Positions 2,479 through 36,389 of a stretch of DNA of 36,389 bases are shown here, one piece after another; positions within the stretch are counted from its first letter, which is position 1; each line of letters opens with the position of its first letter. Made by a program: the position numbers and the translations under genes. Source of the DNA: Eximiradius sp. (GTDB lineage Bacteria; Bacteroidota; Ignavibacteria; Kapaibacteriales; UBA2268); NCBI GenBank assembly GCA_937127445.1, contig CAKZLY010000004.1, forward strand, positions 1-36,389, written 5' to 3'. Under the pieces are notes generated by a model that worked only from the letters and a program-made list of their open reading frames with translations, searched no databases and was not told where the DNA came from.

Positions 2479-3813
2479 TTAATCAATTATTTTAATCTTT
2501 GCATAAGCTGTGTTTACTTCAAAAGGGCGGTATTCTTCTTCTGGTACCTTCAAATATTTTCCGACTGAACTTACAAGCAATTGATAATATAGCGTTGCTT
2601 TGAATGTAAGCTCTTTTGATTTGATTTTATCAGGGATGTGAAATGTAAAGTTTTCAATCTTTGTTTCCCGTGGACCTATGCGATAATCGACTCCGAGCGA
2701 CGAAGTGTTCCATTGTTGTATTGTCATTCTCCCTTGCGGATCAAAGTATGGCATACGAAAAATTCTATTGCCTTCGGGAATATCATCACGCTCTAAACCT
2801 TTGAAATTTGGGTCTTTTAGGGGAATCCCCATATCTTGATAGGCAAGCGTCTTTGTAGAAATAGTATATTCTTCGCCAGGAAAACCTTTCCGACTAACAG
2901 GAATATGGTATTTCGTCCCATTTCCATCAATTGCAACAAGTTCGAGCCATACTAATCTGTCTTCCACCGAACCTGTGGGAAACTTGTGCCCGGTTTTCTG
3001 GTTATATAGAGTAACTGTCAGCTTTAATGCATCGCCGGGTTCGCATTCGCTATGGTCCGGGTATACTTTCAGTTCGATCGTTCCGCGAACTTTCGATGGG
3101 TCGTGTGCCCCTGCAAAAATATGTTGCCTCACGTCAGGGTACACTTTCCCCATCGCAGCTTTGATGCTCTGTGCTCGTGGCATATGGCAATCTTGGCAGT
3201 GAACATTTTCTTTAGCATAAGGCCCTTCTTTCCATTCCAAATGTGTGGATTTCACCCATACCCCGTATGGACTTTTTTCGTTGTGGCAAATCCCACAGAA
3301 GTCCCCTGTTTTCATTATTGGATTTACTTCAATTTTGTGGACAGGCGAACCTACCTCACCAATTCGTGAGTTATACTTTGTTTTTCCAGGTTTTATAACG
3401 TAGTTGAAATTATAAGGGATGTCTCCCTCAAATCCTGAAATCAAATGGCATACTTCGCAGGATACTCCTTCGTTAGCTCGTGTACCTGCTGAAGGTGGTT
3501 TCGGAGGGATGTCGCCAGTAAGCAGTGCAAGTGGTGCGTGGCAACCATTGCATCCTGCTTCTACCTCTGCAACTTTTTCGTCAAGGCGAGCGTGTGGCAG
3601 TGCCAACGCAAAATACTCGATTTCGTCCCATTCGTGTGTGTACGATTGGGACATCATTGCTTGCGACCACTGATTGTAGATATCACGGTGGCAGGTCGTC
3701 CCACAATATTTCGGCGTTTCAAAATCAGAGTATTTATACTTTGGGGTATTTAAAAATGAAACTAAAAAAGTTGAAACGCATAATATTGTACTAACAAGTA
3801 GAATTTTTTTCAT
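2479..3813 (-). CDS. Secreted multihaem cytochrome c (five haem-binding motifs)
   Basis: A 444-residue exported protein with an N-terminal hydrophobic signal or anchor (residues 4-21). Five haem c motifs are visible: CGTTCH at 37-42, CNGCH at 88-92, CEVCH at 119-123, CGICH at 173-177 and CQDCH at 206-210. The first has three residues between the cysteines, an unusual CX3CH form. Histidines at 60, 74, 159, 191 and 205 are possible distal ligands. The N-terminal part resembles the cytochrome c554-like multihaem group. The region after about residue 240 is a beta-rich C-terminal domain with the TGHKFPTG motif (from about 275) seen in this family. It is the first gene of a pair with the barrel cytochrome downstream. 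The likely role is periplasmic or surface electron transfer; the specific electron donor or acceptor cannot be read. Confidence 0.85.
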   Translation of the reverse strand: MKKILLVSTILCVSTFLVSFLNTPKYKYSDFETPKYCGTTCHRDIYNQWSQAMMSQSYTHEWDEIEYFALALPHARLDEKVAEVEAGCNGCHAPLALLTGDIPPKPPSAGTRANEGVSCEVCHLISGFEGDIPYNFNYVIKPGKTKYNSRIGEVGSPVHKIEVNPIMKTGDFCGICHNEKSPYGVWVKSTHLEWKEGPYAKENVHCQDCHMPRAQSIKAAMGKVYPDVRQHIFAGAHDPSKVRGTIELKVYPDHSECEPGDALKLTVTLYNQKTGHKFPTGSVEDRLVWLELVAIDGNGTKYHIPVSRKGFPGEEYTISTKTLAYQDMGIPLKDPNFKGLERDDIPEGNRIFRMPYFDPQGRMTIQQWNTSSLGVDYRIGPRETKIENFTFHIPDKIKSKELTFKATLYYQLLVSSVGKYLKVPEEEYRPFEVNTAYAKIKIID

Positions 3814-12728: not shown

Positions 12729-12758
12729 GTTCCTCTAAAATATATTAGCAATTTGGTT

Positions 12759-12788
12759 GAAATGAAGAACTTCAGGGTTCTTCATTTC
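12759..12788 (+). terminator. 12-bp stem hairpin between the acidic gene and the HhH/barrel gene
   Basis: Perfect 12-bp inverted repeat GAAATGAAGAAC / GTTCTTCATTTC with a 6-nt loop, followed by CATTTTATG. It begins 30 bp after the acidic gene's stop and ends 6 bp before ATG 12795. It could terminate the acidic gene's transcript or act in the leader of the next gene. Its presence argues against the earlier starts at 12753 or 12762, which would place the stem inside the coding sequence. Confidence 0.6.
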
Positions 12789-12794
12789 CATTTT

Positions 12795-14750
12795 ATGAGA
12801 AACCAATTCTGCATATTATTTCTTTTGATACTTTTTTCAAATTATCTGTATTCACAAAATATAGATAATTTCGAATTAGAGAAATTTCTTGTTCAATTCT
12901 CCTCGGAAGATGAACTCACTGATGTTATCGAAACACTCGAATATTACTTTTCAAATCCAATCAAACTCTACAAAGCTCGTGCGGATGCTCTTACTGTTCT
13001 GCCAAACATTGATTATTATACTTCTTCAATAATTGTTGAACGTTTTAATAATAATCCCAAATTATCTTATAATACACTTTTCGACGGCTTAGAACTTTCC
13101 GACATTCAGCAAAAAATCTTGATGAAAACAACCAACCGGGACACAATTTTGCCTAATAGATTTTCTTCCGATTACAGAGTTCGCAGCCAAGAACGATTTG
13201 AAACTGTTCGCGGATTAGAGGAAAAGAAATACCTCGGAAATAAATACAATATTTATCAGAAATTTCAAGCAAATTACTCATATTTCCAACTTCAAGCAAT
13301 TGGAAATAAAAATTTAGGAGAAATATACTTATTTGATTTTTATTCAATCGGAGCAAAATATCAAACTGATAAATTCAAATTGATTGTTGGTGATTTCACA
13401 GCTGCTTTCGGTTGCGGTAATACGCTTTGGCAATCATATCCTATTGGCAAAGGTGGCGATTTTATTCGCTCTGCTGTGCCTTATAAAAATTCAATTAATC
13501 TTAACACTTCAACTATGCGAACAAACTTTATGCGTGGCGTTGCTCTGGAATACAATTTCAATCGCCTATGGCATAATTTTTCCCTGACAGCCTTTATCTC
13601 AAACACCAAACGTCCTGCAAATGTTGATACAGCAAAGAAAGTTGCCACTTCTATTTATACCACTAACTACTTCCGCACAAAAACTGAAATAAACAAAAAA
13701 GATGCTCTTGGAGAAAATTCTTTAGCAGTGAATTTCGCTTATAATTACAAAAAAATTACTCTCGGTGCTACTTATTTCTCTATCAACTACGATTATCCGC
13801 TTAAAAGCTCTTCCAGCAATGCCTTCGAAGGTTCATACTCAGATATTATTTCTCTATATGCTCTTTATACTATTCGGAATATAAGTTTGGGCGGAGATTA
13901 TTCTCTCTATTCACGAGAATTCCCTGCTATAAAACTTTATAACATAATCAAACTAAATAATATCGACTTTGCTTTGCATTACAGAAATTACCATTCAAAT
14001 TACAGAAGTTTTTGGGGATATAATTTTGGTGAAAGTTCTATTCCTGCAAACGAAGAAGGTCTCTATCTAGCCATTTCTGCTAAGCTAAGCAAAAACCTCA
14101 AAACAGAGGCTTATTTAGATTTATACCGTACTCACACCCGTACCTATTCTGTGCAAAAACCAATCAAAGGTGTTGATTATTCAGTAAAACACTTGTACGA
14201 AAACAAACTGCTCGGCTCATTTTTCCTGAAAATCAAATCAGAAGCCAAGACTGACGGATTTAAGCCAAATGGAGCAGCAAGTCAAGTGATTTACACTCTT
14301 CGTCGTAACGAAGTTCGTTTTGAATACGAACGTAGAATAATGAAAAATTTAACACTCACAACTCGATTTGATGCAACTGATGTTTCTTTTGAACAGAAAA
14401 AAAATAATGAAAAAGGTTATGCGGCTTATTTGCAAATAAGTTACGATGTGCTGAAAAATCTCTCACTTGTAGTAAGAACTTCTTTTTTCAACACTGATAG
14501 TTATTCTTCAGCTATTTGGCATTATGAATATAGAATGCCAACGTCCGTGTATACAAATCCCCTCTACGACGAAGGAAATCGCCTGTTGATTCGCCTATAT
14601 TATTCGCCATTCAGGAATATAAAGTTGTATTTAGCTTATACAAGACTGGAAAAACCTAAACTTGATAAACTTGGAAGTTCTTACGACCAAATAAAAAGCA
14701 ACAAAGACAACAGAATTTTTTTACAAATTAATATTAATTATTCTGAATAA
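12795..14750 (+). CDS. Outer-membrane barrel with degenerate N-terminal helix-hairpin-helix region
   Basis: Starting at ATG 12795 it has 651 residues and a clean signal peptide (MRNQFCILFLLILFSNYLYSQ). Residues ~22-115 are helical, with FSSEDELTDVIETLEYYF, then NPIKLYKARADALTVLPNI and a second hairpin ending YNTLFDGLELSD. This matches a group of Bacteroidota envelope proteins in which NPINLNTA...L..LP helix-hairpin-helix repeats precede an outer-membrane barrel; here the repeat is degenerate. From ~125 on the protein is beta-barrel-like, with many Tyr/Phe-rich alternating strands such as FKLIVGDFTAAFGCGNTLW and LNNIDFALHYRNYHSNY. The chain ends NINYSE. In-frame upstream codons (TTG 12753, ATG 12762) lie in the hairpin and give no signal peptide. 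Function is unknown; HhH motifs normally bind DNA, so DNA contact at the surface is only a possibility. Confidence 0.7.
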   Translation: MRNQFCILFLLILFSNYLYSQNIDNFELEKFLVQFSSEDELTDVIETLEYYFSNPIKLYKARADALTVLPNIDYYTSSIIVERFNNNPKLSYNTLFDGLELSDIQQKILMKTTNRDTILPNRFSSDYRVRSQERFETVRGLEEKKYLGNKYNIYQKFQANYSYFQLQAIGNKNLGEIYLFDFYSIGAKYQTDKFKLIVGDFTAAFGCGNTLWQSYPIGKGGDFIRSAVPYKNSINLNTSTMRTNFMRGVALEYNFNRLWHNFSLTAFISNTKRPANVDTAKKVATSIYTTNYFRTKTEINKKDALGENSLAVNFAYNYKKITLGATYFSINYDYPLKSSSSNAFEGSYSDIISLYALYTIRNISLGGDYSLYSREFPAIKLYNIIKLNNIDFALHYRNYHSNYRSFWGYNFGESSIPANEEGLYLAISAKLSKNLKTEAYLDLYRTHTRTYSVQKPIKGVDYSVKHLYENKLLGSFFLKIKSEAKTDGFKPNGAASQVIYTLRRNEVRFEYERRIMKNLTLTTRFDATDVSFEQKKNNEKGYAAYLQISYDVLKNLSLVVRTSFFNTDSYSSAIWHYEYRMPTSVYTNPLYDEGNRLLIRLYYSPFRNIKLYLAYTRLEKPKLDKLGSSYDQIKSNKDNRIFLQININYSE

Positions 14751-22731: not shown

Positions 22732-25700
22732 ATGAAAAAACTACTGTTTTCGCTGATTCTAACCTCTTTATTTCAGTATTTTGCTTTTCCTCAAACTGAA
22801 AGCAAACTCCTTCGCTACCCGAATACCTCCAAAAACGAGGTTGTTTTCTCCTATGCAGGCAATATATGGATTGCTCCGATAACAGGTGGAGTTGCACGTA
22901 AACTTACAAGCTCCTCGGGTCTCGAACTTTATCCAAGATTTTCTCCCGACGGCAGGCAAATAGCTTTTGTCGGTGAATATGATGGCAACCCTGATATCTA
23001 TATTATGCCCTCGACCGGTGGAGAACCACGCCGTATCACTTATTCACTTGATATGCCCGATGTTGCGGAACGTCAGGGACCAGCCAAAATCATAATGCAA
23101 TGGACAAACGACAACAAATATATTCTTTACCGCAGCCGTGAGAAAAGCTGGAATGTCCTTTCCGGTCAACTTTTCATTGCACCAATTGATGGTGGTTTAC
23201 CTACTGAACTACCACTTGCCCGAGCTGGCTTTGCAAGCCTTTCCCCAGATGGTGAGCGAATTGCTATGAACCGAATTTTCCGTGAATACCGCACCTGGAA
23301 ACGCTATCGCGGTGGACAGGCTGATGATATTTGGATTTACAATTTTAAAACTAAATCTCTCGAAAATATATCAAACAATCCAGCTCAGGACATAATTCCT
23401 ATGTGGGTTGGAAATAAAATCTATTACCTTTCGGACCGCGACAAAGTTATGAACTTGTTCTGCTATGATTTGAACACTAAACAAACAAAAAAAATTACCA
23501 ATTTTACTGAATTCGATGTTAAATTCCCCTCTCTTGGGGCAGAACATATCGCTTTCGAAAATGGTGGTGAAATTTATATCTTGAAAACAGAAAACGATTA
23601 CCTTCAAAAACTCGACATTTATGTATATGACGATAATAGCGATTTTCGACCAGGTTTTGTTGATGTCCGAAAATACATTACTAACGCTTCAATTTCTCCT
23701 GATGGAAAATCTGCTTTGTTCGTTGCTCGTGGCGATATCTTTGTTGTACCCGCAAAAAACGGATATCCTAAAAATCTCACTAACACCAATGGAATTCACG
23801 AACGAAATGCCAAATGGTCGCCAGATGGTCGATGGATAGCCTTCATTAGTGACGAAACCGGCGAAGACGAAATCTATATTATGCGACCCGATGGAACTGA
23901 AAAAACACGCCTTACAAACGATGGCACCTCTTACCGCTGGGAACTCGAATGGTCCCCCGACAGCAAAAAAATTCTCAATTCTGATAAATTAATGCGATTA
24001 TTTTACGTAGATGTAGAAACAAAAAAAGTTACTCACATTACTAAATCGAAAATATGGGAAATCCGCGATTTCGGTTGGTCGCCCGATAGCCGATGGGTTG
24101 TTTATACTGATTTAGTCAATAATTACACGCCAGTTCTTAATTTGTATTCATTGAATGACAGTAAATCTTATCAAATCACAAATGAGTTCTTTGAGTCAAA
24201 TGGTGCTGTCTTCTCGCCCGACGGCAAATATTTATTCTTCGTCTCTAAAAGGACATTCAATCCTACAACTGGTTCTTTTGAATATAACTTTGTCTACAAT
24301 AATCTCGAAAAAATTTATGGCATCGCTTTAAGTTCAAATATTCCAAATCCTTTAATCAAATTCGAAGATTACGTCAAAACTAATGAAGATACTACCGCCA
24401 AACCTAAGAAATCAACAAAAAAATCATCTAAAATCGCAAACGAAAACGAAGACTTAATCTCTATCGATTTGAACGGTATTTCTAACAGGATTTTCGAATT
24501 TCCTATGCCTGCTGCTTCATATTCTTCTATTTATGCTGATAAAAATTGCATATATTACATAAGATACCACAATAACAATTCAACCCTATTTAAATTCGAT
24601 TTAGAAAAATGCGAAGAATCAAAAGTTGGTGATTTCTCTCAATTCGATATATCAAGAGATTTTAAATCAATTTTGATAAAAAGCAAAGATGATTATTATA
24701 TTGAAAAATTGAAAGAAAATCTTACTCCGAAAGATGGGAAACTTGATTTGTCCGATTTAAAAATATTCATTGACAAACGAAAAGAATGGAAGCAAATTTA
24801 TGACGAAACCTGGCGACAGATGCGAGACTTCTTCTATACTCCCAATATGCACGGAGTTGATTGGGCTGCCATTAAGAAGAAATACGAAGTTCTTCTTCCT
24901 TATATTTCTCATAGAGCCGATTTAACATATGTCCTTGGAGAAATGATTGGTGAACTAAATGCCGGACACGCATATGTTGGCGGTGGCGATATACCAAAAG
25001 TTGAACCTATTGGAATTGGATATCTAGGTGCTGACTTGGAATTTGACGAAAAGACTGGTTTCTACAAAATCAAAAAAATATTAGAAGGTCAAAACTGGGA
25101 CGAAAATCGCCGTTCTCCTCTTACCGAGCCTGGAATTAAAATAAAAAAAGGAGATTATATTCTTGAAATTGATGGTATTCGACTATCAAAAGAAATTACT
25201 CCATATCATGCATTGGTCGGGAAAGACAACAAATTTGTTACCATACGTTATAATTTCCGTCCTACAATTGAAAATTCACAAACAACTGTTGTAAAAACAC
25301 TTCCTCGCGAAACATCGCTGCGTTACTATAATTGGGTCGAACGCAACCGCCGATTTGTTGATAGTGCCACCGGCGGGCGTGTCGGTTACGTGCATATCCC
25401 CGATATGATGCCCGATAACGGACTGAACGAGTTCGTTAAATACTTCTACCCGCAAGTTCGCAAAGAAGCGCTAATCATAGACGACCGTTTCAATGGCGGC
25501 GGTAATGTATCCTCGCTGATTATTGAACGCCTTCGCCGAATCCTTGCTGTAGCACGCAATGCACGAAATCAAGAAATGGTTTTCACTACTCCAAGTGCTG
25601 TCATGACTGGTCCTATGGTTATGCTAATCAACGAACAATCTATGAGCGATGGCGATTTGTTCCCATACCAGTTTAAACTTATGGGATTAGGCAAACTCAT

Positions 25701-25986
25701 AGGCAAACGCACCTGGGGCGGTGTCATTGGTATTCGCGGAAGCCTCCCATTCCTCGATGGTGGTTATCTTAATAAACCTGAGTTCGCTAACTTTGGACGC
25801 GATGGATCGTGGATTTTGGAAGGTGTTGGGATGGAACCTGATATCGAAATTGAAAACAATCCAGGATTAGAGTTTGAGGGCATAGATACTCAACTAATTA
25901 AAGCAATTGAAATTATTTTAGAAGAAATCAAAACAGACACTAAACCAAAAATTCCTAAAGTCCCAGATTATCCGATTAAAAACTAA
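22732..25986 (+). CDS. Secreted tricorn-type protease (S41 family)
   Basis: A 1084-residue protein with a signal peptide (MKKLLFSLILTSLFQYFAFPQ). Residues ~25-300 and ~305-560 are two beta-propellers with repeated WD40-like blades (FSPDGRQIAFVGEYDGNPDIYIM, WSPDGRWIAFISDETGEDEIYIM). A Lys-rich linker, a helical core domain (~690-745), a PDZ domain (~755-855) and the S41 catalytic domain follow. By alignment to tricorn, the nucleophile is S972 in NEQSMSDGD, the histidine is H746 in AGHAY and the glutamate is E1030 in LEGVGMEPD; GGG at 922-924 would form the oxyanion hole. The Ser that precedes the histidine in tricorn is Gly745 here. The signal peptide puts it in the periplasm, unlike the cytosolic archaeal enzyme. 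It likely degrades peptides. A strong terminator follows. Confidence 0.93.
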   Translation: MKKLLFSLILTSLFQYFAFPQTESKLLRYPNTSKNEVVFSYAGNIWIAPITGGVARKLTSSSGLELYPRFSPDGRQIAFVGEYDGNPDIYIMPSTGGEPRRITYSLDMPDVAERQGPAKIIMQWTNDNKYILYRSREKSWNVLSGQLFIAPIDGGLPTELPLARAGFASLSPDGERIAMNRIFREYRTWKRYRGGQADDIWIYNFKTKSLENISNNPAQDIIPMWVGNKIYYLSDRDKVMNLFCYDLNTKQTKKITNFTEFDVKFPSLGAEHIAFENGGEIYILKTENDYLQKLDIYVYDDNSDFRPGFVDVRKYITNASISPDGKSALFVARGDIFVVPAKNGYPKNLTNTNGIHERNAKWSPDGRWIAFISDETGEDEIYIMRPDGTEKTRLTNDGTSYRWELEWSPDSKKILNSDKLMRLFYVDVETKKVTHITKSKIWEIRDFGWSPDSRWVVYTDLVNNYTPVLNLYSLNDSKSYQITNEFFESNGAVFSPDGKYLFFVSKRTFNPTTGSFEYNFVYNNLEKIYGIALSSNIPNPLIKFEDYVKTNEDTTAKPKKSTKKSSKIANENEDLISIDLNGISNRIFEFPMPAASYSSIYADKNCIYYIRYHNNNSTLFKFDLEKCEESKVGDFSQFDISRDFKSILIKSKDDYYIEKLKENLTPKDGKLDLSDLKIFIDKRKEWKQIYDETWRQMRDFFYTPNMHGVDWAAIKKKYEVLLPYISHRADLTYVLGEMIGELNAGHAYVGGGDIPKVEPIGIGYLGADLEFDEKTGFYKIKKILEGQNWDENRRSPLTEPGIKIKKGDYILEIDGIRLSKEITPYHALVGKDNKFVTIRYNFRPTIENSQTTVVKTLPRETSLRYYNWVERNRRFVDSATGGRVGYVHIPDMMPDNGLNEFVKYFYPQVRKEALIIDDRFNGGGNVSSLIIERLRRILAVARNARNQEMVFTTPSAVMTGPMVMLINEQSMSDGDLFPYQFKLMGLGKLIGKRTWGGVIGIRGSLPFLDGGYLNKPEFANFGRDGSWILEGVGMEPDIEIENNPGLEFEGIDTQLIKAIEIILEEIKTDTKPKIPKVPDYPIKN

Positions 25987-26265: not shown

Positions 26266-29200
26266 ATGATTAAATCCTTCACGCGATTTATTTTAATCGC
26301 TCTTTTGTTCGTTGTTGGGTATTCTCTAAATGCTCAAGTCATTGTTCAAACATCTCAAGACACTGCTACTTACACATCATTGAAATTAGCCTTCGATGCA
26401 ATTAATGTCGGTGCTTTTACTGGCAATATTGAAGTGCTAATTGATGATAATCTTGTAGAGACCGATCCACCCGTGCTAAAAGCTTCTGGTGTCGGTAGTG
26501 CAAATTACACATCAGTTGTAATTTTCCCTACAAGTGAATACACTATCTCAGGCAGTATCGGCAGCTACAAAGCAATTATTATTCTCGAAGATGCCGATAA
26601 CGTTACTATCGATGGGCGTGTAAACCGCACTGGTAATTTAAATGGGCTGACAATACAAAACACAGCCACATCCAATGCTGCTGGAATATGGGTAGCTCGC
26701 TCAAGTTCTGGCAACGGCGCTAATAATGTTACCATCAGAAATGTAAATGTAATTGGTGCCTCTGCTTCGACAAGCTCCATTTTCGGCATAGTTTCCGGAT
26801 TGTATTCCACATCTTCTTTCACTTCTGCTGGAACTAATAATACTACGAAAATACTTAATTGCAACGTCTATAGAGCATACTATGGTATACGTATTTATGC
26901 CAGCTCTTCTCCAAGAGCAACAGGAATTGAAATACGAAACAATAATATTGGGAATAATGCCACTGCTGGCGACGGCTGTTATTATGGCTACTATACCTAT
27001 TACACCGAGGGATTGATAATGGATAACAACAAATTATCAATCAATTCATCAAGTGCTTGTTATTCATATTATATATACTATGCTAATAATTCTGTTATTA
27101 CAAATAACACTGTTGAAAATACTACAACTGGTTCTACCTTATATGGCTACTATACACCATATTTGACTAACAGTCTGTTGGAGAACAACTCCATTAAGAA
27201 TTCCGTTTCAACTGCATTTTACGGTGTTTATCTAACTTCTACCTCAACTGGAAATACATTTAATAATTGCGAAATTTCAAATATTTCCGGCTCTTCCACA
27301 ATGTATTGTTGGTATGTTCTTGGCACAAGTGCAAACAATACATTTAATAACTGTACAATAAAGAATATTTCGAACAGTTCAACATCAGCTTTAGCAGCAA
27401 TTTATAACTCCTCTGGCTCAAACAATGACTATAATGGATTGAAAATAAGTAATATACAAGGAAATGCCAATGTCTACGGTATTTATCTCGCAAGTGCTGC
27501 CAACACAACTGTTCGTAATTGCGAGATAACAAACATTTCCACTGGTTCAGCAAGCACAACAACCTCTGCATATGGTATATATGTCTCTTCTTCTTGTGAT
27601 CAATCACGCTTTATTAATAATTCGATTTCTAGGATATTCGATGCTGTTAACAAAACTTCGTTCCAGTATATCCCATCTGGTATTATGCTCTTTGGTAGTA
27701 TTAATCATCAAATTTATAACAACTCAATAAATATTTATGGGAATAAAACAGTTTCTGGTTCTACTCAAGGTTTCTCTGCTGGTATTGCTTTGAACACATC
27801 TGTTACTGGCTGCGACATACGAAACAACTCTATTGTTAACACTCAAATAAATTCCGTTGCTTCTTCTAAATCTTTTGCAATTTACTTTGGAGCAGATGCG
27901 CCATTCAATTCTGGAACAGTAAATTACAACAATTATTTTGTATCTGGAAGTAATGCCGTTCTTGCTGGTATTGGATCTACAGATTTCACTAATTTGACAG
28001 CATTTAAAAATAGAGATACACTAAAAAACACCAATTCCATTAGCGTAAATCCTCTTTACAACTCAAATACTAACTTGCGACCTTACTATGGCTCTCCACT
28101 TATTGCAGCTGGAACTCCTTTAAGCCTTGTAACTACCGACTTAGATGGCAATACTCGCTCAACAACTTCGCCTTCAATTGGTGCTTTCGAAATTGAAGGT
28201 GATTTTATCGCTCCTGAAATTGTATTCCAGCCAATTCTAAATACTACAAGCACGTCTAATGTTACACTTCTTGTCGGTATCTCTGACAATACTGCCGTGG
28301 ACACAGTTAATAAGCCACGTCTATACTACCGAAAAAAGACAAACCTTAATACTTTCATCGATAATACTAACCAAACAAACGGATGGAAATACGTTGAGCC
28401 AATTTCTATTTCTGGTAATTCTTTTACTTTTGAAATAGATTATTCAAAAATATATGGTGGCGTTTATCAGGGAACTGCTATTGAGTATTTTGTTATTGCA
28501 CAAGACATCAATAATCCCGCAAATGTAGCCGTCAGCGATGGTAAATTTACAGTTTCTCCTTCATCTGTCAATTTGACGATCTCTAATTTCCCTGTTGCTG
28601 TTACTTCAAACTATGTTATTGCTGCTCCATTATCTGGTGTAATTCAAGTTGGACAGGGTCAAACTTATACATCACTTACTAAACCGGGTGGCGTTTTCGA
28701 ACTGCTACAACTTAGCGTTCTAACTGGGGATTTAGACATTCAGATTACTTCCGATTTGGAAGAAACAGGTCAAATCCCTCTCGAAGCCATTACTTCACAA
28801 GGCGGAAGCTATTTTATTAAGATTTATCCTACCGGTAATTATACAATTAGTGGGACAGGTGATGCAATAATTCGACTGGAAGATGCTGATAGAGTTATTA
28901 TCGATGGCCGTGTTAATGCAACAGGTAATACACCTGCATTAACCATTGTTAATAACGGACCTGGTGCAGTCATCTGGCTTTACCGAGGTGATAAATTTAG
29001 TGCAAATGGTGCGAGAAACAACACTATTCGCTATTGTAATATTGTCAGTAGCAATCCTTCTTCAGCAGGTTATTATGGTATTGTGCTTAGCGGTAAAGCG
29101 TCTCTTACAAGTGGTGCTGCTGGTAACATAGATAATGTAATTGAATATAACAATATTTATCGTGCCTATTTTGGTATTCGTGCTTACGGTGCTTCGGATG

Positions 29201-32200
29201 GTTATCTAACTGGTTTAAAGATTCGCAATAATAACTTTGGGAATAATCTAACAGAAGGGGATGGTCTTTATTACGCTATTTACACATATTTTTGCGACTT
29301 CCCCGAAATTACAGACAATAATATCCTATCAAATTCATCTTCTGTTCACTATGGTATGTATGTCTATTATTGCAACAATGCTCTTATTCAAGGGAATTCA
29401 ATTCAATCGACATCCACTTCTACTTTCTATGCTATTTACGTCGGATACAACAATAATTCATTAGTTACTGAAAACGAAATTTCCAATACTTCGTCAACAA
29501 CAATATACGGTAACTATTTATACTACTGCAATAATTCAACGTCAAGCAACAATTTGATTCAGAATAATATTTCTTCTTCCGCTCAATATCTTATTTATTC
29601 ATATTATGGTTCTGCAAATACTATAACAAACAACAAAATATTAAATAATCAGGGCGGTTCTTCTGTTGCTTATGGTGTTTATGTTTACTATCACTCTAAT
29701 GGGATAGTAACAAATAACATAATTAAAAATTTGAGCTCCACTACCACTGCAAATGGGATTTATGTTTACAATAGTTCCTCGAATATTACTAATGCCCTTA
29801 TAGCAAATAATACAATTCAAAATTTATCTAATTCAAGTGCAACAACAGGTATTGCTGGTATTGATCTCTATTATGCTCATCAAACAAAACTGTATAATAA
29901 TGCAATCAGTGGTGTTTCTAAAACATCTGCAACGACTGATCCACTTTACATTCCTGCTGGTATTAGAATTCGCTATGGAACTGATATTCAAGTTTATCAT
30001 AATACTGTTCATATCACAGGTGATTTTTCTAATGTTGGTGGTGATTTAAATTCAGCTGCCTTAGTAATTAACTACAGTACTGCAACTGCGTGGAATGTTA
30101 GAAATAATACATTTTCAAATAATGCCGTAGCAACACCTAACTCTGAATCCTACGCAATTGTTATTCCTGACGCGGCAAGTTTGACAAATTCTATTATTGA
30201 CTACAATAATTATTATGTATCTGGCAGTAATGGTGTATTGGGTAATTTTGCTGGTGTTGATAGACCAACTTTAGTACTTTGGAAAGCTGCTACTAATCAA
30301 GATCAAAATTCAATGAATTTTGCACCAGTATTTAATAGTGATATCGATGTGATTCCTTTTACAAACGCATTTATGGGTCTTGGTACTCCAATCGCTGCTG
30401 TTACAACAGACTTATTCGGTAATACACGTTCAACAACTGCACCAGCAATAGGCGCCTTCGAAACTTTTGGTGATTATGTTCCTCCGACAATCAATTTATC
30501 TTTGCTTGGTCACACAGTATCTACTGGTAATAGATCTACAACTGCTGTTATTAATGACTTAAGTGGTGTGAGCACGGGTGCTTACGCTCCACGAATTTAT
30601 TTCAAGAAAAAGACAAATGCGAATACTTATGTTGATAATACACCTGCTACAAATGGTTGGAAATATACAGTTGCAACAGGTACTGCGCCTAATTTCTCCT
30701 TTACAATCAACACTGCACTAATTCACGGTGGAGTTTCTGTTGGTGATGAAATCGAATATTTCGTAGTTGCTCAGGACAACTCTGCTGTTCATAAGGTTGC
30801 ATTATCTCATGGTGAATTTACTACTGAACCATCAAGTGTTCAACTTGTTGCTGCAAACTTCCCAATCAAGAGATTGTACGTTTCTTATAAAGTTAAACCC
30901 CAAGTTGCTGGTATTATTGAAGTTGGCGCCGGAAAACAATTTGAAAACCTAACAGGTATGAACGGAGTATTCGCATATATCAACAATAGAGTTCTTTCTG
31001 GCAATTTACATATTAAACTCACATCTGATTTAGTTGAACCAGGCACAATTCGTTTGCAGGAAATACCATCTGATGCAACAACTCCTTACACTATTTATAT
31101 TTATCCAACTACTGAAATTGAAATTTCCGGCCCTGCTCAGAACGCTCTAATTACATTCGAAGATGTTGATAACCTTGTATTTGACGGAAGAATTAACATG
31201 ACTGGTACCGAAAATGCTGTTACTCTTGAGAATACCCAGTCCTCGCAAGCTGTCCTTTGGATTAAGAAAGGTACTCTAAGTACAAGTAATGGGGCTAATA
31301 ATGTTACAGTTAGGAATTTAAATATTATTGGTCCATCGAGCACCTCTACTTGCTATGGTATCATTGTAGGTGGGGGAACAAGTATTTCAGCTGCTGGTGG
31401 TAATAGAAACGTTCAATTACTATACAACAATGTTTATAGATCTTACTATGGCATACGTGTTTATGCTTCCTCTGCTGATAAATCTTTTGGAACTAAAATT
31501 AAATTTAATAGCTTTGGTAATAATGCAGCTCCAAATGATGGGCATTACTATGCTCTTTATGTTTATTATGCTGATAGCACCGAAATAACACATAATACAT
31601 TCAAAGTTAGTACAACCAGCACTATCTATAACTTGTATTGTTATTATTCTAACAACACCTTTGTTTATTCGAATACATTCGCTAACAGTACTGCTTCCTC
31701 AACTTATTATGGTATTTACTTGTCCTACTCTCACAATAGTACAGCTCTCAATAATATTATAGAAAGCAACAATCTAACCTCTACGCTTTACGGTATATAT
31801 CCATATTACTCAAACAACGTTAATGTAAGTAACAACATAATTCGTAATAATCAGATAAGTTCAGCTTATTATATCTACCCTTATTACGGATCCGACAATT
31901 CAGTAATTGGGAACACTATTGAGAATAATACAAGCTCTTATCACTATGGAATTTACAATTATTATTCAACTAACCCTACAATTGAAAGTAACGTAACAAG
32001 AAATAACACAGCTATTAACTCTTTCTATGGTTTATACCTTTCATCCCCTGGTGCTGGCAACTTTAACTATAACGAAATAGTCGATAATACAGCTAATTCA
32101 TCTACTTATGGTATTTATCTGTCTTCTGGCGGTAACAGCAACATTATTGGTAATACGATAAAGAATTTGCAAGGTGGTTCAAGTACGTATGGTATTTACC

Positions 32201-35200
32201 TTACTTCATCCGCCAATGTCAAAATTCTTGCTAACAAAATTGGGTACATCCGCCAAATTTCGGGTACATCTACATCTTATTGCGATGGTATCTACGTTGG
32301 CTCTTCTTGCAACAATACTGAAATAGTGAACAACGAAATTGCAGGTATCTATGACTACATAAATAAAACTTCAAATGTTTATATTCCTTCGGGAATCAGA
32401 ATACACGCAAGCGTTGGCCATAAGATTTACTACAATTCCGTTAATATGTACGGCAACACTTATTCGACTAGCACTGCTGCCGGTGCTTCAACCGCACTTA
32501 TGATTTATACCAGCTCAACAAACAATATTGACGTTCGCAATAATGTTTTCGTAAATACAATGACCGGACCTTCCAATTATAAAGGGTATGCAATATATAT
32601 AACAAGTGGTGCAAGTTTGACAAACTCAACCTTTAACTACAATAATTATTTTGTTGATGGTCCTAATGGCAAATTAGCATTCATTACTCAAGACATTGAT
32701 ACTTTCCCTGTTTTACAGGCTCTTACCGGTCAGGACATCAATTCCTTAAATGTTAACCCACTATTTAACAATAATGAGGTCCTTGTCCCTGTTGATGGTA
32801 GCCCACTTGAGGGAGCAGGGACTCCAATTTTGGCTTATAGTACAGACATACTGGGTAATATGCGTTCTACTTCTGTCCCATTTATTGGTGCTTACGAAGT
32901 ATCCGGTGATCTTGTTCCACCATCAATTACATTTGTTCCTTTGCTTAATACTTCTGAAACAACAAATAGAACTATTCAAGCAACGGTATTAGATTATAGT
33001 GGTGTAAACAATACTTTAAATCCGCCAAGAATATATTTCCGTAAGAAATCTAATGCAAATGTATTTATCGACAATACCCCTGCAACTGATGGATGGAAAT
33101 ATACAACTGGTGCTGGTTCCGGCTACTCCTTCAATTTCACTATCGATTACAACTTGTTATACGGTGGTGTTGCTCCCGGTGATGAAATAGAATACTTCAT
33201 TATTGCACAAGATAATTCTCCAAACCAACTAACAGGTGCGTCAAGTGGCATTTTTAACATCGCTCCTGTTTCAACACTTTTAAATGTTAATAACTTCCCT
33301 GTAGAAAATGTTAAACACAGTTATTTTATCTCCATTCCTTTTGCTGGCATTATTGAAGTTGGACAAGGAAAACCATTCACAAGTTTAACAAACTCTGATG
33401 GTCTTTTTGCTGCACTTAATAACAGTGTTCTAGTAGGTAATTTGCAAGTTCGCATTACTTCAAACCTTACTGAAACTGGTACTGTCCCTCTAAAGAAAAT
33501 TGTTTGCGAAAACAATAATCCATACACTATTAGCATTTATCCAGCTGGTAATTATACAATTAGCGGTGCAGCTCCTACTTCTATGATTACTCTCGATGGT
33601 GCTGAACGTGTTACGATAGATGGTCGTATTAATCGAACCGGAACTACAAACGCTTTAACTATTCAGAATACACAATCTTCTGCTGCTGTCATCAGAATGA
33701 TAAATAGTGTTAAAAATATCACTATCAGAAACTGTAACGTTATAAGTGCAGCAGCTACAAGCACTTGCTACGGTATAGTTGCAAGCGCTCCTTCAAGCTT
33801 GACTACTGGTTCTGGTGGAAATGATAGTATTGCAATCCTATATAATAATATTTATCGTGCATATTACGGTATCCGTCTTGCTGGTGTCTCTGGTGAACCA
33901 ATTATTGCTCCTCGTGTTATTGGAAATAAATTCGGTAATAATGGCACTAGCGGCGATGGCCATTATTACGCACTTTATGTTTCCTATTCAAGCTATGCTA
34001 CTATTGATAGTAACAATATTCACGTCAACTCCTCTTCCGCCTGCTACACTTTGTATAATTACTATAATGTAAATAGTTCTGTGAAATACAATACTATTCG
34101 ATATCAAGGTACAAGCTCCTTCTATGCGATTTATAACTATTATTCTGATTTCTCTGATGTTAGCTACAACCGTATTGAAAATAGCAATTCTTCACTGATT
34201 TATGCTCTTTACTCATACTATCCGAAAAGTGCCACCTATACAGGCAACATTATCCGCAACAATTCTTCGACCTCTACTACTTACTATATTTATTCATATT
34301 ATACTCAAAGCAGCACTTTCTCGAATAATATTGTAGAAAACAATCTTTCAACTTCTACACAGTACCTTGCATATCTGTATTATGGTAATACAACAACTCT
34401 ATCGAATAACATTTTCCGAAATAACAACAATACTGGAACTAGCACAGTTTATGGCATCTACGTATATTATCATCCTAATGCAGTTATTACAGGCAATACA
34501 ATTAGTGGCATTACGGCAAATTCAACTTTGAGTGGTATTTATGTATATTCTGCATCAACATCAACTACCTCAAATAATACTCAAATCAGAAACAACTTGA
34601 TTGAAAATATCAATAGAACTGCAACGTCAACTACCTCTTACGTTGCTGGTATTGCAATTGGCGGTAATGCAAACAACACTCAGATAACAAATAACATTAT
34701 AAGAAATATCAATGATTTAACCCCACAGACTACTGCAACTTATATTCCTTCTGGTATCAGAATTAACGGTAGTACTGGTCACACAATCGCATACAACACT
34801 GTTGATCTATCCGGCGAATATACTGCTAATGGAGCAACAATGTCTTCTGCATTTGTTATTGCAGTTACAGATCTAACAGGTTGCACAATCAAAAACAATA
34901 CATTTAACAACTCAATGTACGGTGTCTCTGGCAGCAGATCTTACGCTGTATTCCACGATGGCACTGGTTTCACAGGGGGTGAACTTAATTACAATAATTA
35001 TTTTGTCAGTGGTTCACAAGGCATCGTTGCTTACTTTAGCGGTGATTTGCCAAATCTTGCCACTTGGCGTACTCTAACAAATGCAGATGCTAATTCAATA
35101 AGTGCAAATCCACAATTTGCGAACCCAGCTTACCGTGACTATCGACCATTGGTAGGCTCACCGCTTGCAGGGGCTGGCTCACCTGTATCAGGAGTAACGA

Positions 35201-36389
35201 CGGACATTCTTGGAGTAACTCGCTCAACAACAGCCCCGACAATAGGAGCATACGAAAATGCTATACTAATAGGCGTACCAATGCTGCTGTCGCCATCAAA
35301 CGGACAAGAGAACATATCAATATCAGCAATATTAGAATGGGGTTCCGTATATACAGCGACGGGCTACAATTTACAGGTTTCTACCTCGCCAACATTTGCA
35401 ACGTTTGTGTATAACGATACAGTAACAGCATTGCAAAAGCAATTGACAGGGTTGTCGTACAACACAGTATATTACTGGCGAGTGCGTGCAGTGCGCCCAG
35501 GTGTAATAGGTGGATGGTCAGAAGTATACAATTTCCGTACACAATTGCCACCATTGGGAGTGCCGAGCTTATCACAACCGTTCGACAATGCAACAAATGT
35601 ATCGATAAATCCGACATTTAGCTGGTCAAGCGTAGCAACTACGACAGGTTACCAATTGCAAGTAGCGAGCGATGCAACATTCACGAATGTAGTTAAAGAT
35701 GAAACATCAACTACCACAAGCAAAGCAGTAACCGGCTTAAGCTACAATACACAATATTGGTGGCGAGTAAGAGCATTACGTGGAAGCGAACAAGGTTCTT
35801 GGAGCAGCATACGCACATTTACCACGATTGTGCAGCTACTGCCGCCAACATTGCAAACACCAGCGAATTTAGCAACGAACGTAACAATAAATCCGGCATT
35901 GAACTGGGATGCATACCCAACAGCGACAGGCTACAAGATACAAGTATCTACAAGCAGCACATTTGCAACTACGATAGTCAATGAAACAGTAACAGGTACA
36001 AGTCGTTCGTTGAGCAACTTGCAGTATCTAACGACATACTACTGGCGAGTAAAATCAGTTCGTGGTAGCGAAGAGAGCGATTGGTCAACAGTGTGGTCGT
36101 TTACGACGCAGAATGTACCACTGGTGGCACCTGTGCTAACTTCACCGACGAACAATGCAGTAGATGTATCAATATCCCCGACATTACAATGGAATGCAGC
36201 AGCGACAGCGACAGGCTACAAGATACAAGTATCTACAAGCAGCACATTTGCAACTACGATAGTCAATGAAACAGTAACAGGTACAAGTCGTTCGTTGAGC
36301 AACTTGCAGTATCTAACGACATACTACTGGCGAGTAAAATCAGTTCGTGGTAGCGAAGAGAGCGATTGGTCAACAGTGTGGTCGTTTAC
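26266..36389 (+). CDS. Giant secreted beta-helix/Ig/Fn3 surface protein (3' end outside window)
   Basis: One open frame of 3374 codons without a stop, running off the window. Signal peptide MIKSFTRFILIALLFVVGYS, predicted cleavage near LNA-Q (residue 24). Four super-modules follow. Each has a header with GN..V.I..DL.E and a TIDGR(V/I)N element, a parallel beta-helix of Asn/Ser/Thr/Tyr-rich rungs of about 26-29 residues, a cap containing YIP(S/A)GI and NYNNYFVSGS, and a closing DLxGNTRSTTxPxIGAFE motif like that of choice-of-anchor-Q proteins. Ig-like linkers (YYRKKTN...NGWKY...EYFVIAQD) follow the first three; Fn3 domains follow the fourth. It is surely exported and very likely displayed or released at the surface as an elongated rod. 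The route (type IX secretion) would need the missing C-terminus. Adhesin, stalk or polysaccharide-binding roles are possible; none is shown. Confidence 0.9.
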   Translation, partial: MIKSFTRFILIALLFVVGYSLNAQVIVQTSQDTATYTSLKLAFDAINVGAFTGNIEVLIDDNLVETDPPVLKASGVGSANYTSVVIFPTSEYTISGSIGSYKAIIILEDADNVTIDGRVNRTGNLNGLTIQNTATSNAAGIWVARSSSGNGANNVTIRNVNVIGASASTSSIFGIVSGLYSTSSFTSAGTNNTTKILNCNVYRAYYGIRIYASSSPRATGIEIRNNNIGNNATAGDGCYYGYYTYYTEGLIMDNNKLSINSSSACYSYYIYYANNSVITNNTVENTTTGSTLYGYYTPYLTNSLLENNSIKNSVSTAFYGVYLTSTSTGNTFNNCEISNISGSSTMYCWYVLGTSANNTFNNCTIKNISNSSTSALAAIYNSSGSNNDYNGLKISNIQGNANVYGIYLASAANTTVRNCEITNISTGSASTTTSAYGIYVSSSCDQSRFINNSISRIFDAVNKTSFQYIPSGIMLFGSINHQIYNNSINIYGNKTVSGSTQGFSAGIALNTSVTGCDIRNNSIVNTQINSVASSKSFAIYFGADAPFNSGTVNYNNYFVSGSNAVLAGIGSTDFTNLTAFKNRDTLKNTNSISVNPLYNSNTNLRPYYGSPLIAAGTPLSLVTTDLDGNTRSTTSPSIGAFEIEGDFIAPEIVFQPILNTTSTSNVTLLVGISDNTAVDTVNKPRLYYRKKTNLNTFIDNTNQTNGWKYVEPISISGNSFTFEIDYSKIYGGVYQGTAIEYFVIAQDINNPANVAVSDGKFTVSPSSVNLTISNFPVAVTSNYVIAAPLSGVIQVGQGQTYTSLTKPGGVFELLQLSVLTGDLDIQITSDLEETGQIPLEAITSQGGSYFIKIYPTGNYTISGTGDAIIRLEDADRVIIDGRVNATGNTPALTIVNNGPGAVIWLYRGDKFSANGARNNTIRYCNIVSSNPSSAGYYGIVLSGKASLTSGAAGNIDNVIEYNNIYRAYFGIRAYGASDGYLTGLKIRNNNFGNNLTEGDGLYYAIYTYFCDFPEITDNNILSNSSSVHYGMYVYYCNNALIQGNSIQSTSTSTFYAIYVGYNNNSLVTENEISNTSSTTIYGNYLYYCNNSTSSNNLIQNNISSSAQYLIYSYYGSANTITNNKILNNQGGSSVAYGVYVYYHSNGIVTNNIIKNLSSTTTANGIYVYNSSSNITNALIANNTIQNLSNSSATTGIAGIDLYYAHQTKLYNNAISGVSKTSATTDPLYIPAGIRIRYGTDIQVYHNTVHITGDFSNVGGDLNSAALVINYSTATAWNVRNNTFSNNAVATPNSESYAIVIPDAASLTNSIIDYNNYYVSGSNGVLGNFAGVDRPTLVLWKAATNQDQNSMNFAPVFNSDIDVIPFTNAFMGLGTPIAAVTTDLFGNTRSTTAPAIGAFETFGDYVPPTINLSLLGHTVSTGNRSTTAVINDLSGVSTGAYAPRIYFKKKTNANTYVDNTPATNGWKYTVATGTAPNFSFTINTALIHGGVSVGDEIEYFVVAQDNSAVHKVALSHGEFTTEPSSVQLVAANFPIKRLYVSYKVKPQVAGIIEVGAGKQFENLTGMNGVFAYINNRVLSGNLHIKLTSDLVEPGTIRLQEIPSDATTPYTIYIYPTTEIEISGPAQNALITFEDVDNLVFDGRINMTGTENAVTLENTQSSQAVLWIKKGTLSTSNGANNVTVRNLNIIGPSSTSTCYGIIVGGGTSISAAGGNRNVQLLYNNVYRSYYGIRVYASSADKSFGTKIKFNSFGNNAAPNDGHYYALYVYYADSTEITHNTFKVSTTSTIYNLYCYYSNNTFVYSNTFANSTASSTYYGIYLSYSHNSTALNNIIESNNLTSTLYGIYPYYSNNVNVSNNIIRNNQISSAYYIYPYYGSDNSVIGNTIENNTSSYHYGIYNYYSTNPTIESNVTRNNTAINSFYGLYLSSPGAGNFNYNEIVDNTANSSTYGIYLSSGGNSNIIGNTIKNLQGGSSTYGIYLTSSANVKILANKIGYIRQISGTSTSYCDGIYVGSSCNNTEIVNNEIAGIYDYINKTSNVYIPSGIRIHASVGHKIYYNSVNMYGNTYSTSTAAGASTALMIYTSSTNNIDVRNNVFVNTMTGPSNYKGYAIYITSGASLTNSTFNYNNYFVDGPNGKLAFITQDIDTFPVLQALTGQDINSLNVNPLFNNNEVLVPVDGSPLEGAGTPILAYSTDILGNMRSTSVPFIGAYEVSGDLVPPSITFVPLLNTSETTNRTIQATVLDYSGVNNTLNPPRIYFRKKSNANVFIDNTPATDGWKYTTGAGSGYSFNFTIDYNLLYGGVAPGDEIEYFIIAQDNSPNQLTGASSGIFNIAPVSTLLNVNNFPVENVKHSYFISIPFAGIIEVGQGKPFTSLTNSDGLFAALNNSVLVGNLQVRITSNLTETGTVPLKKIVCENNNPYTISIYPAGNYTISGAAPTSMITLDGAERVTIDGRINRTGTTNALTIQNTQSSAAVIRMINSVKNITIRNCNVISAAATSTCYGIVASAPSSLTTGSGGNDSIAILYNNIYRAYYGIRLAGVSGEPIIAPRVIGNKFGNNGTSGDGHYYALYVSYSSYATIDSNNIHVNSSSACYTLYNYYNVNSSVKYNTIRYQGTSSFYAIYNYYSDFSDVSYNRIENSNSSLIYALYSYYPKSATYTGNIIRNNSSTSTTYYIYSYYTQSSTFSNNIVENNLSTSTQYLAYLYYGNTTTLSNNIFRNNNNTGTSTVYGIYVYYHPNAVITGNTISGITANSTLSGIYVYSASTSTTSNNTQIRNNLIENINRTATSTTSYVAGIAIGGNANNTQITNNIIRNINDLTPQTTATYIPSGIRINGSTGHTIAYNTVDLSGEYTANGATMSSAFVIAVTDLTGCTIKNNTFNNSMYGVSGSRSYAVFHDGTGFTGGELNYNNYFVSGSQGIVAYFSGDLPNLATWRTLTNADANSISANPQFANPAYRDYRPLVGSPLAGAGSPVSGVTTDILGVTRSTTAPTIGAYENAILIGVPMLLSPSNGQENISISAILEWGSVYTATGYNLQVSTSPTFATFVYNDTVTALQKQLTGLSYNTVYYWRVRAVRPGVIGGWSEVYNFRTQLPPLGVPSLSQPFDNATNVSINPTFSWSSVATTTGYQLQVASDATFTNVVKDETSTTTSKAVTGLSYNTQYWWRVRALRGSEQGSWSSIRTFTTIVQLLPPTLQTPANLATNVTINPALNWDAYPTATGYKIQVSTSSTFATTIVNETVTGTSRSLSNLQYLTTYYWRVKSVRGSEESDWSTVWSFTTQNVPLVAPVLTSPTNNAVDVSISPTLQWNAAATATGYKIQVSTSSTFATTIVNETVTGTSRSLSNLQYLTTYYWRVKSVRGSEESDWSTVWSF
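26338..28620 (+). repeat. Super-module 1 (header, beta-helix, cap, Ig-like linker)
   Basis: Header YTSLKLAFDAIN at about 26371, DGRVN at 26623, then rungs such as LYGYYTPYLTNSLLENNSIK and FYGVYLTSTSTGNTFNNCEI. The cap is YIPSGIMLFGSINHQIYNNS, followed by NYNNYFVSGSNAVLA near 27922. The closer RSTTSPSIGAFE spans 28156-28191, and the Ig-like linker (IAPEIVFQPILN to SNFPV) follows. DGRVN-to-DGRVN distance to super-module 2 is 2280 bp. Confidence 0.8.
28621..30894 (+). repeat. Super-module 2 (header, beta-helix, cap, Ig-like linker)
   Basis: Header VGQGQTYTSLTKPGGVFELL, DGRVN at 28903, then rungs with repeated YGxYVYY strings. The cap is YIPAGIRIRYGTDIQVYHNT, followed by DYNNYYVSGSNGVLG near 30199. 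The closer RSTTAPAIGAFE spans 30427-30462, and the Ig-like linker has IYFKKKTNANTYVDNTPA. The DGRVN-to-DGRIN distance to super-module 3 is again 2280 bp. Confidence 0.8.
30895..33336 (+). repeat. Super-module 3 (header, beta-helix, cap, Ig-like linker)
   Basis: Header VGAGKQFENLTGMNGVFAYI, DGRIN at 31183, then a longer beta-helix with rungs such as YGIYPYYSNNVNVSNNIIRN. The cap is YIPSGIRIHASVGHKIYYNS, followed by NYNNYFVDGPNGKLA. The closer RSTSVPFIGAYE spans 32863-32898, and the Ig-like linker has IYFRKKSNANVFIDNTPA. The distance from its DGRIN to that of super-module 4 is 2436 bp, 52 codons longer than the first two periods, about two extra rungs. Confidence 0.8.
33337..35268 (+). repeat. 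Super-module 4 (header, beta-helix, cap, closer without Ig linker)
   Basis: Header VGQGKPFTSLTNSDGLFAAL, DGRIN at 33619, rungs such as YATIDSNNIHVNSSSACYTL, cap YIPSGIRINGSTGHTIAYNT, then NYNNYFVSGSQGIVA near 34984. The closer RSTTAPTIGAYE spans 35221-35256. In place of an Ig-like linker, Fn3 domains start at once. Codon choice changes within the last ~100 bp of this module, inside the closer region. Confidence 0.8.
35920..36104 (+). repeat. 185-bp direct repeat, copy 1
   Basis: Identical base for base to 36205-36389, offset 285 bp, within Fn3 domain 3. Synonymous sites are also identical, unlike the other Fn3 domains. Confidence 0.95.
36205..36389 (+). repeat. 185-bp direct repeat, copy 2 (may continue past the window)
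   Basis: Identical to 35920-36104. Identity reaches the last base of the window, so the true repeat may be longer. Confidence 0.95.

Follow-up and report, generated by a model that had tools for sequence, protein, structure and literature searches.

What kind of protein is encoded by an open frame of more than three thousand codons that runs off the end of its contig, and is its repetitive design peculiar to that one gene? The question is raised by contig C4 (CAKZLY010000004.1) in the 2.45 Mb, 35-contig genome of an Eximiradius sp. (Bacteroidota; Kapaibacteriales). The entire contig of 36389 bases was analysed and is here called the window. It runs out inside the giant gene and the 3' end of the gene is therefore missing. 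An original prediction, made from the letters alone, had read the frame as four beta-helix units joined by Ig-like linkers and ended by Fn3 domains, a specific architecture not recognised as a named family, which probably formed a long surface fibre.

Architecture of the giant frame

The features of the frame are as follows.

26266..36387, + strand: whole open frame, ATG start, 3374 codons with no stop up to the contig end, cut at the 3' side
26266..26334, + strand: signal-peptide-like N-terminus, hydrophobic and ending in ...NAQ, judged by eye
26335..28191, + strand: super-module M1 (aa 24-642) with header, IDGR element, beta-helix, YIPSGI cap, NYNNY strand and choice-of-anchor-Q-type closer
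28192..28635, + strand: linker K1 (148 aa), probably Ig-like by homology to K2
28636..30462, + strand: super-module M2 (aa 791-1399), right-handed parallel beta-helix in the model
30463..30909, + strand: linker K2 (149 aa), Ig-like beta-sandwich in the model
30910..32898, + strand: super-module M3 (aa 1549-2211), from motifs and self-alignment
32899..33345, + strand: linker K3 (149 aa), from alignment with K1 and K2
33346..35256, + strand: super-module M4 (aa 2361-2997), followed directly by Fn3 with no linker
35272..36387, + strand: four Fn3 domains (aa 3003-3374), the fourth incomplete because the contig ends there

Motif counts and self-alignment divide the frame into four super-modules, each with a header, a beta-helix, a cap and a closer in that order, which are 38-45% identical to one another over approximately 600-660 aa; the three linkers share 42-47% identity. 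A motif search of the giant frame recovered each named element exactly four times and in order, as had been claimed: [IF]DGR[VI]N at aa 115, 879, 1639 and 2451, YIP[SA]GI at 468, 1228, 2039 and 2826, the NYNNY-type strand at 552, 1311, 2123 and 2907, TD-x-x-G-x-x-RST at 624, 1381, 2193 and 2979, and IGA[FY]E at 638, 1395, 2207 and 2993. The last two Fn3 copies (DNA 35858-36104 and 36143-36389) are 90% identical, and their near-identity is one likely reason why the contig stops here.

Within the helix core the sequence repeats every 26-27 residues, with much Asn, Ser, Tyr and Thr, and it matches the Pfam family PF13229 (Beta_helix) in 12 stretches at 159.1 bits against a gathering score of 25.9. 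In NCBIfam the closer matches choice-of-anchor Q (NF041518) in three stretches, with 64.9 bits for the whole protein against a cut-off of 25. The window protein places the closer internally after each solenoid rather than once, and its cap and linker lie outside the NF041518 model. Fold, closer, Fn3 and T9SS export are known elements, and the header and linker have no match in Pfam or, by sequence, in the PDB. The linker had just a chance PDB match (E 0.34) and no Pfam Ig match at the sequence level, and the super-modules had zero PDB matches by sequence. Neither a paper describing the combination of header, helix, closer and linker nor one on 'choice-of-anchor Q' was found among open-licence PMC papers, which is weak evidence of absence; the design still lacks a family name.

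Elsewhere in the window, a multiheme-cytochrome-like protein is encoded at 2482-3813 (-), with cytochrome C7, C554 and NapC/NirT domain matches and a weak MtrC/MtrF match. Two ORFs, at 12753-14750 (+; 665 aa) and 1275-2486 (-; 403 aa), gave no Pfam match at E 0.001.

Predicted fold and the question of catalysis

An AlphaFold2 model of M2, K2 and the header of M3 (M2+K2+H3), built on 13 sequences, had a mean pLDDT of 79 and a pTM of 0.61, with the helix core mostly at 80-96 and the closer (model residues 555-613) not resolved. Comparison of the M2 model with the PDB returned right-handed parallel beta-helices throughout. The best match of the M2 helix was the tailspike of cyanophage Pam1 (VIA Z 29.7 over 442 residues at 2.6 A), followed by AlgE6 (Z 28.8), NosD (26.8) and the pneumococcal adhesin PfbA (24.8). 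The modelling supports a right-handed parallel beta-helix for the super-module, as anticipated. A second model, of K2+H3 (pLDDT 89, pTM 0.74), predicts K as an Ig-like sandwich, whose best PDB match is the Ig domain of P. gingivalis peptidylarginine deiminase (PPAD; Z 10.6, 102 aligned residues, rmsd 2.7); Foldseek alone returned nothing below E 0.001 for this model. The predicted structure thus supports the Ig-like assignment of the linkers that follow the first three units. The whole protein may be an extended rod.

The same fold invites a catalytic reading, in which the protein would be a multi-domain polysaccharide lyase, epimerase or depolymerase and each beta-helix a catalytic module, like the serial A-modules of the AlgE mannuronan C-5 epimerases. 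The right-handed parallel beta-helix is common to the window helix and to AlgE4/AlgE6, PL6 lyases and phage tailspike depolymerases, with strong structural matches, and AlgE epimerases are known to string several beta-helix modules together. However, fold likeness by itself shows no function, and sequence identity to these proteins is approximately 9-17%. Across 13 modules, Asn, Tyr and Gly make up most of the helix columns that reach at least 85% conservation, with two further columns of Arg; Asp, Glu, His and Lys are absent from this set, which argues against a shared active site as judged by conserved columns rather than by residue-by-residue mapping of the AlgE or PL6 catalytic sites. No enzyme family, carbohydrate-active ones included, scored above cut-off for the window protein in Pfam or NCBIfam, and a purple acid phosphatase match corresponds to the Fn3-like N-terminal domain of that family. 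We consider a catalytic role quite unlikely.

Conservation and integrity of the assembly

In the window genome and in two same-genus MAGs (L030 and L031) alike, the contig breaks within the giant gene, a circumstance that could suggest that module copies had been chained wrongly by the assembler. Against this, L031, an independent MAG, encodes an orthologue with 82% protein identity over 3374 aligned residues that repeats the four modules in identical order, together with three linkers, four Fn3 domains and the start of a fifth, while L030 (85% identity over 1764) spans the first two modules and the beginning of the third. In addition, the modules are 55-62% different from each other, far beyond what an assembler would confuse. 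Because L031 and L030 repeat the order, an artefact is extremely improbable, and for the order of the four modules it is refuted, a verdict that does not extend to the 3' end or to how many Fn3 repeats there are.

Values of dN/dS between the window gene and the L030 and L031 segments were mostly 0.04-0.15, with synonymous sites near saturation; a value of 0.21 was obtained at the short N-terminus in one comparison, and the M1 helix against L031 was not computable. Judged by these ratios, the giant gene is under purifying selection in the same-genus MAGs. The best conserved residue of the helix region between the window and L031 was Tyr (94% of 137), compared with 76 for Ile, 67 for Val and 62 for Leu. 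Tyr is substituted slowly in most proteins, and given this its conservation is only suggestive of function.

Immediately upstream of the giant gene, at window 22732-25986 (+), lies a gene for a tricorn-like protease with PD40 propeller, Tricorn_C1, PDZ and S41 domains; an ORF of equal size occupies this position in both L030 and L031.

Distribution and origin of the design

Genome contigs were scanned with the module alignment, which gave 135 stretches encoding relatives, and home-made profiles for the header (H), cap plus closer (C), linker (K) and Fn3 (F) were run on the ORFs of the fetched loci. Loci entered this set because they resembled the module or K, so that the ORF counts cannot be read as unbiased frequencies. 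A header and/or closer was present in 97 of the 99 ORFs kept after refinement, the other two having K and Fn3 only. Among the fetched loci K occurred 43 times, 40 of them in the order C-K-H. ORFs counted as complete (n=61, including some short, broken frames) had one header in 28 cases, two in 24, three in 5, four in 1, five in 1 and none in 2. K was detected in 19/60 close relatives and, in a phylum-wide sample of 296 Bacteroidota genomes, in 20, within open frames of 720-3932 aa; it is a candidate new domain family.

The common form among relatives is a two-module protein of about 2030-2120 aa, and relatives with K mostly combine two modules with a single linker, whereas the window protein has four and three. 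Header, beta-helix, cap/closer and Ig-like linker are shared with unnamed Bacteroidota proteins, for example the paralogues on contigs C27 (3454 aa) and C9 and the proteins of loci L034, L035, L111, L112 and L116; the stalk consists of Fn3 in the window protein and of Ig in L035. Two paralogues in the same genome follow the order H-C-K-H-C and then Fn3: a complete one of 3454 aa (L011 3043-13404, -), whose third module is more diverged, and one of 2683 aa cut by its contig end (L012 2551-10599, +). Longer arrays may dispense with the linker. L103, of 4633 aa, carries five modules. L092, whose frame of 5498 aa is open at both ends, contains six headers and seven closers, hence at least 6 modules; neither protein has K, and their modules are joined by approximately 13-16 residues in its place. 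By sequence comparison the header, helix and closer design, with or without the linker, recurs across Bacteroidota, and the window protein is an enlarged version of it, contrary to the idea that the architecture was specific to this gene.

In a tree of 53 modules, each window module fell with its positional counterpart in L031/L030 (support 100/100). Window modules 2, 3 and 4 with their orthologues formed one clade (98/97), and module 1 was placed among first modules, those of the two- and three-module paralogues (95/94). On the simplest interpretation, module 2 was copied together with a linker before the genus diverged; an ancestor with two modules, the second of which was duplicated, is the most likely source of the four-module form. 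L103 modules cluster in a clade of their own (98/92), an indication that this array expanded separately.

Probable export and the missing 3' end

The window genome has T9SS genes: a profile search gave 67 TIGR04183 tails (65 above the curated cut-off), one PorU-type sortase (T9SS_sortase NF033707, 841 bits) and SprA (SprA_N PF14349 above cut-off). The complete C27 paralogue (P0002) ends in Por_Secre_tail PF18962, at 35.4 bits when Pfam was run on the tail; TIGR04183 was not listed in the NCBIfam hmmscan of the whole paralogue although the genome search and Pfam on the tail found the tail, and this was provisionally taken as a filter effect. Most complete relatives end in a similar-looking T9SS-type tail, as judged by eye. 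The signal-peptide-like start, the T9SS machinery and the T9SS-tailed paralogue together suggest that the window protein is secreted or at the surface. The complete paralogue ends in a T9SS tail, and the description of the protein as ended by Fn3 is not supported; the four Fn3 repeats are present, and their terminal position is probably an effect of contig truncation.

Attempts to obtain the 3' end failed, as no contig within the window genome overlaps the terminal Fn3 DNA. Contig C11 of genome G002, which starts in Fn3 and ends in a T9SS-like tail, was rejected as the continuation; its window-genome orthologue, 71% identical, lies on C13 as a gene of its own. As a side observation, a T9SS-tail-like fragment of 45 codons with no gene attached lies at the start of contig C9 of genome G000 (1-135, +).

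Proposed function

Our main reading, to which we give a probability of roughly two in three, is that the gene encodes a giant T9SS-exported surface rod of four beta-helices with Ig hinges and an Fn3 stalk, which would act by adhesion or non-catalytic binding of polymers and would have grown by duplication of module 2. A Sec signal would carry the protein into the periplasm, where a C-terminal sorting domain, lost at the contig end and present in the complete paralogue, would pass it to the SprA/PorU route, after which the protein would either stay anchored at the cell surface or be set free. At about 18 turns per module and 0.48 nm per turn, each of the four rigid right-handed beta-helices would be very roughly 8-9 nm long (an estimate only), and they would alternate with Ig-like hinges above the Fn3 stalk. 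Their Tyr/Asn-rich faces may serve as repeated non-catalytic binding surfaces, such that every added module would add reach and valency, and the array would have lengthened as the second of two ancestral modules was duplicated within the gene. Absence of conserved acidic, His or Lys positions, Tyr conservation, Fn3/Ig stalks and the T9SS context, read from sequence, favour such a binding rod.

T9SS cargo may be released as well as anchored, according to one paper (PMC10202324), and the protein could instead be a secreted matrix or sheath scaffold, released rather than tethered, which self-assembles via Tyr/Asn ladders. Its solenoids are repetitive and rich in Tyr, Asn, Ser and Thr, and paralogues are present in the same genome. 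However, the sequence carries no sign of release or self-assembly, and the runs of Fn3 or Ig near the C-terminus are stalk-like and suit a tethered molecule; we regard a released scaffold as unlikely.

The binding rod may be compared with fibrillar adhesin-like proteins, which are long and multidomain, have tandem stalk domains and include Por_Secre_tail among their recorded anchors, mostly in Bacteroidetes (Monzon et al. 2021, PMC8286594). The window protein likewise has tandem Fn3, Ig-like and beta-helix repeats, a likeness in general layout to a class for which the paper lists 82 stalk families. It differs in that none of the Pfam matches of its available 3374 aa is a known adhesive domain, and for this reason it falls outside the formal definition of Monzon et al. 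(PMC8286594), although it may well work similarly. The proposed long surface fibre is a reasonable reading of shape and location, with no adhesive domain found to accompany it.

A wider proposal is possible but on balance doubtful: that the design is a phylum-wide building system for T9SS surface rods, in which entire solenoids (from 1 to at least 6) would be duplicated independently within genes, thereby setting length and valency, and each solenoid would grip polymers through a face that bears a conserved tyrosine ladder.

In uncultured Bacteroidota, large surface proteins rich in repeats break easily in short-read assembly and are usually labelled with a generic 'beta-helix' or 'choice-of-anchor'. 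Domain boundaries for the header and the Ig-like linker, together with the recurring grammar, would allow consistent annotation of many such proteins, and the idea of adhesion or polymer binding is testable on a single module of about 600 aa.
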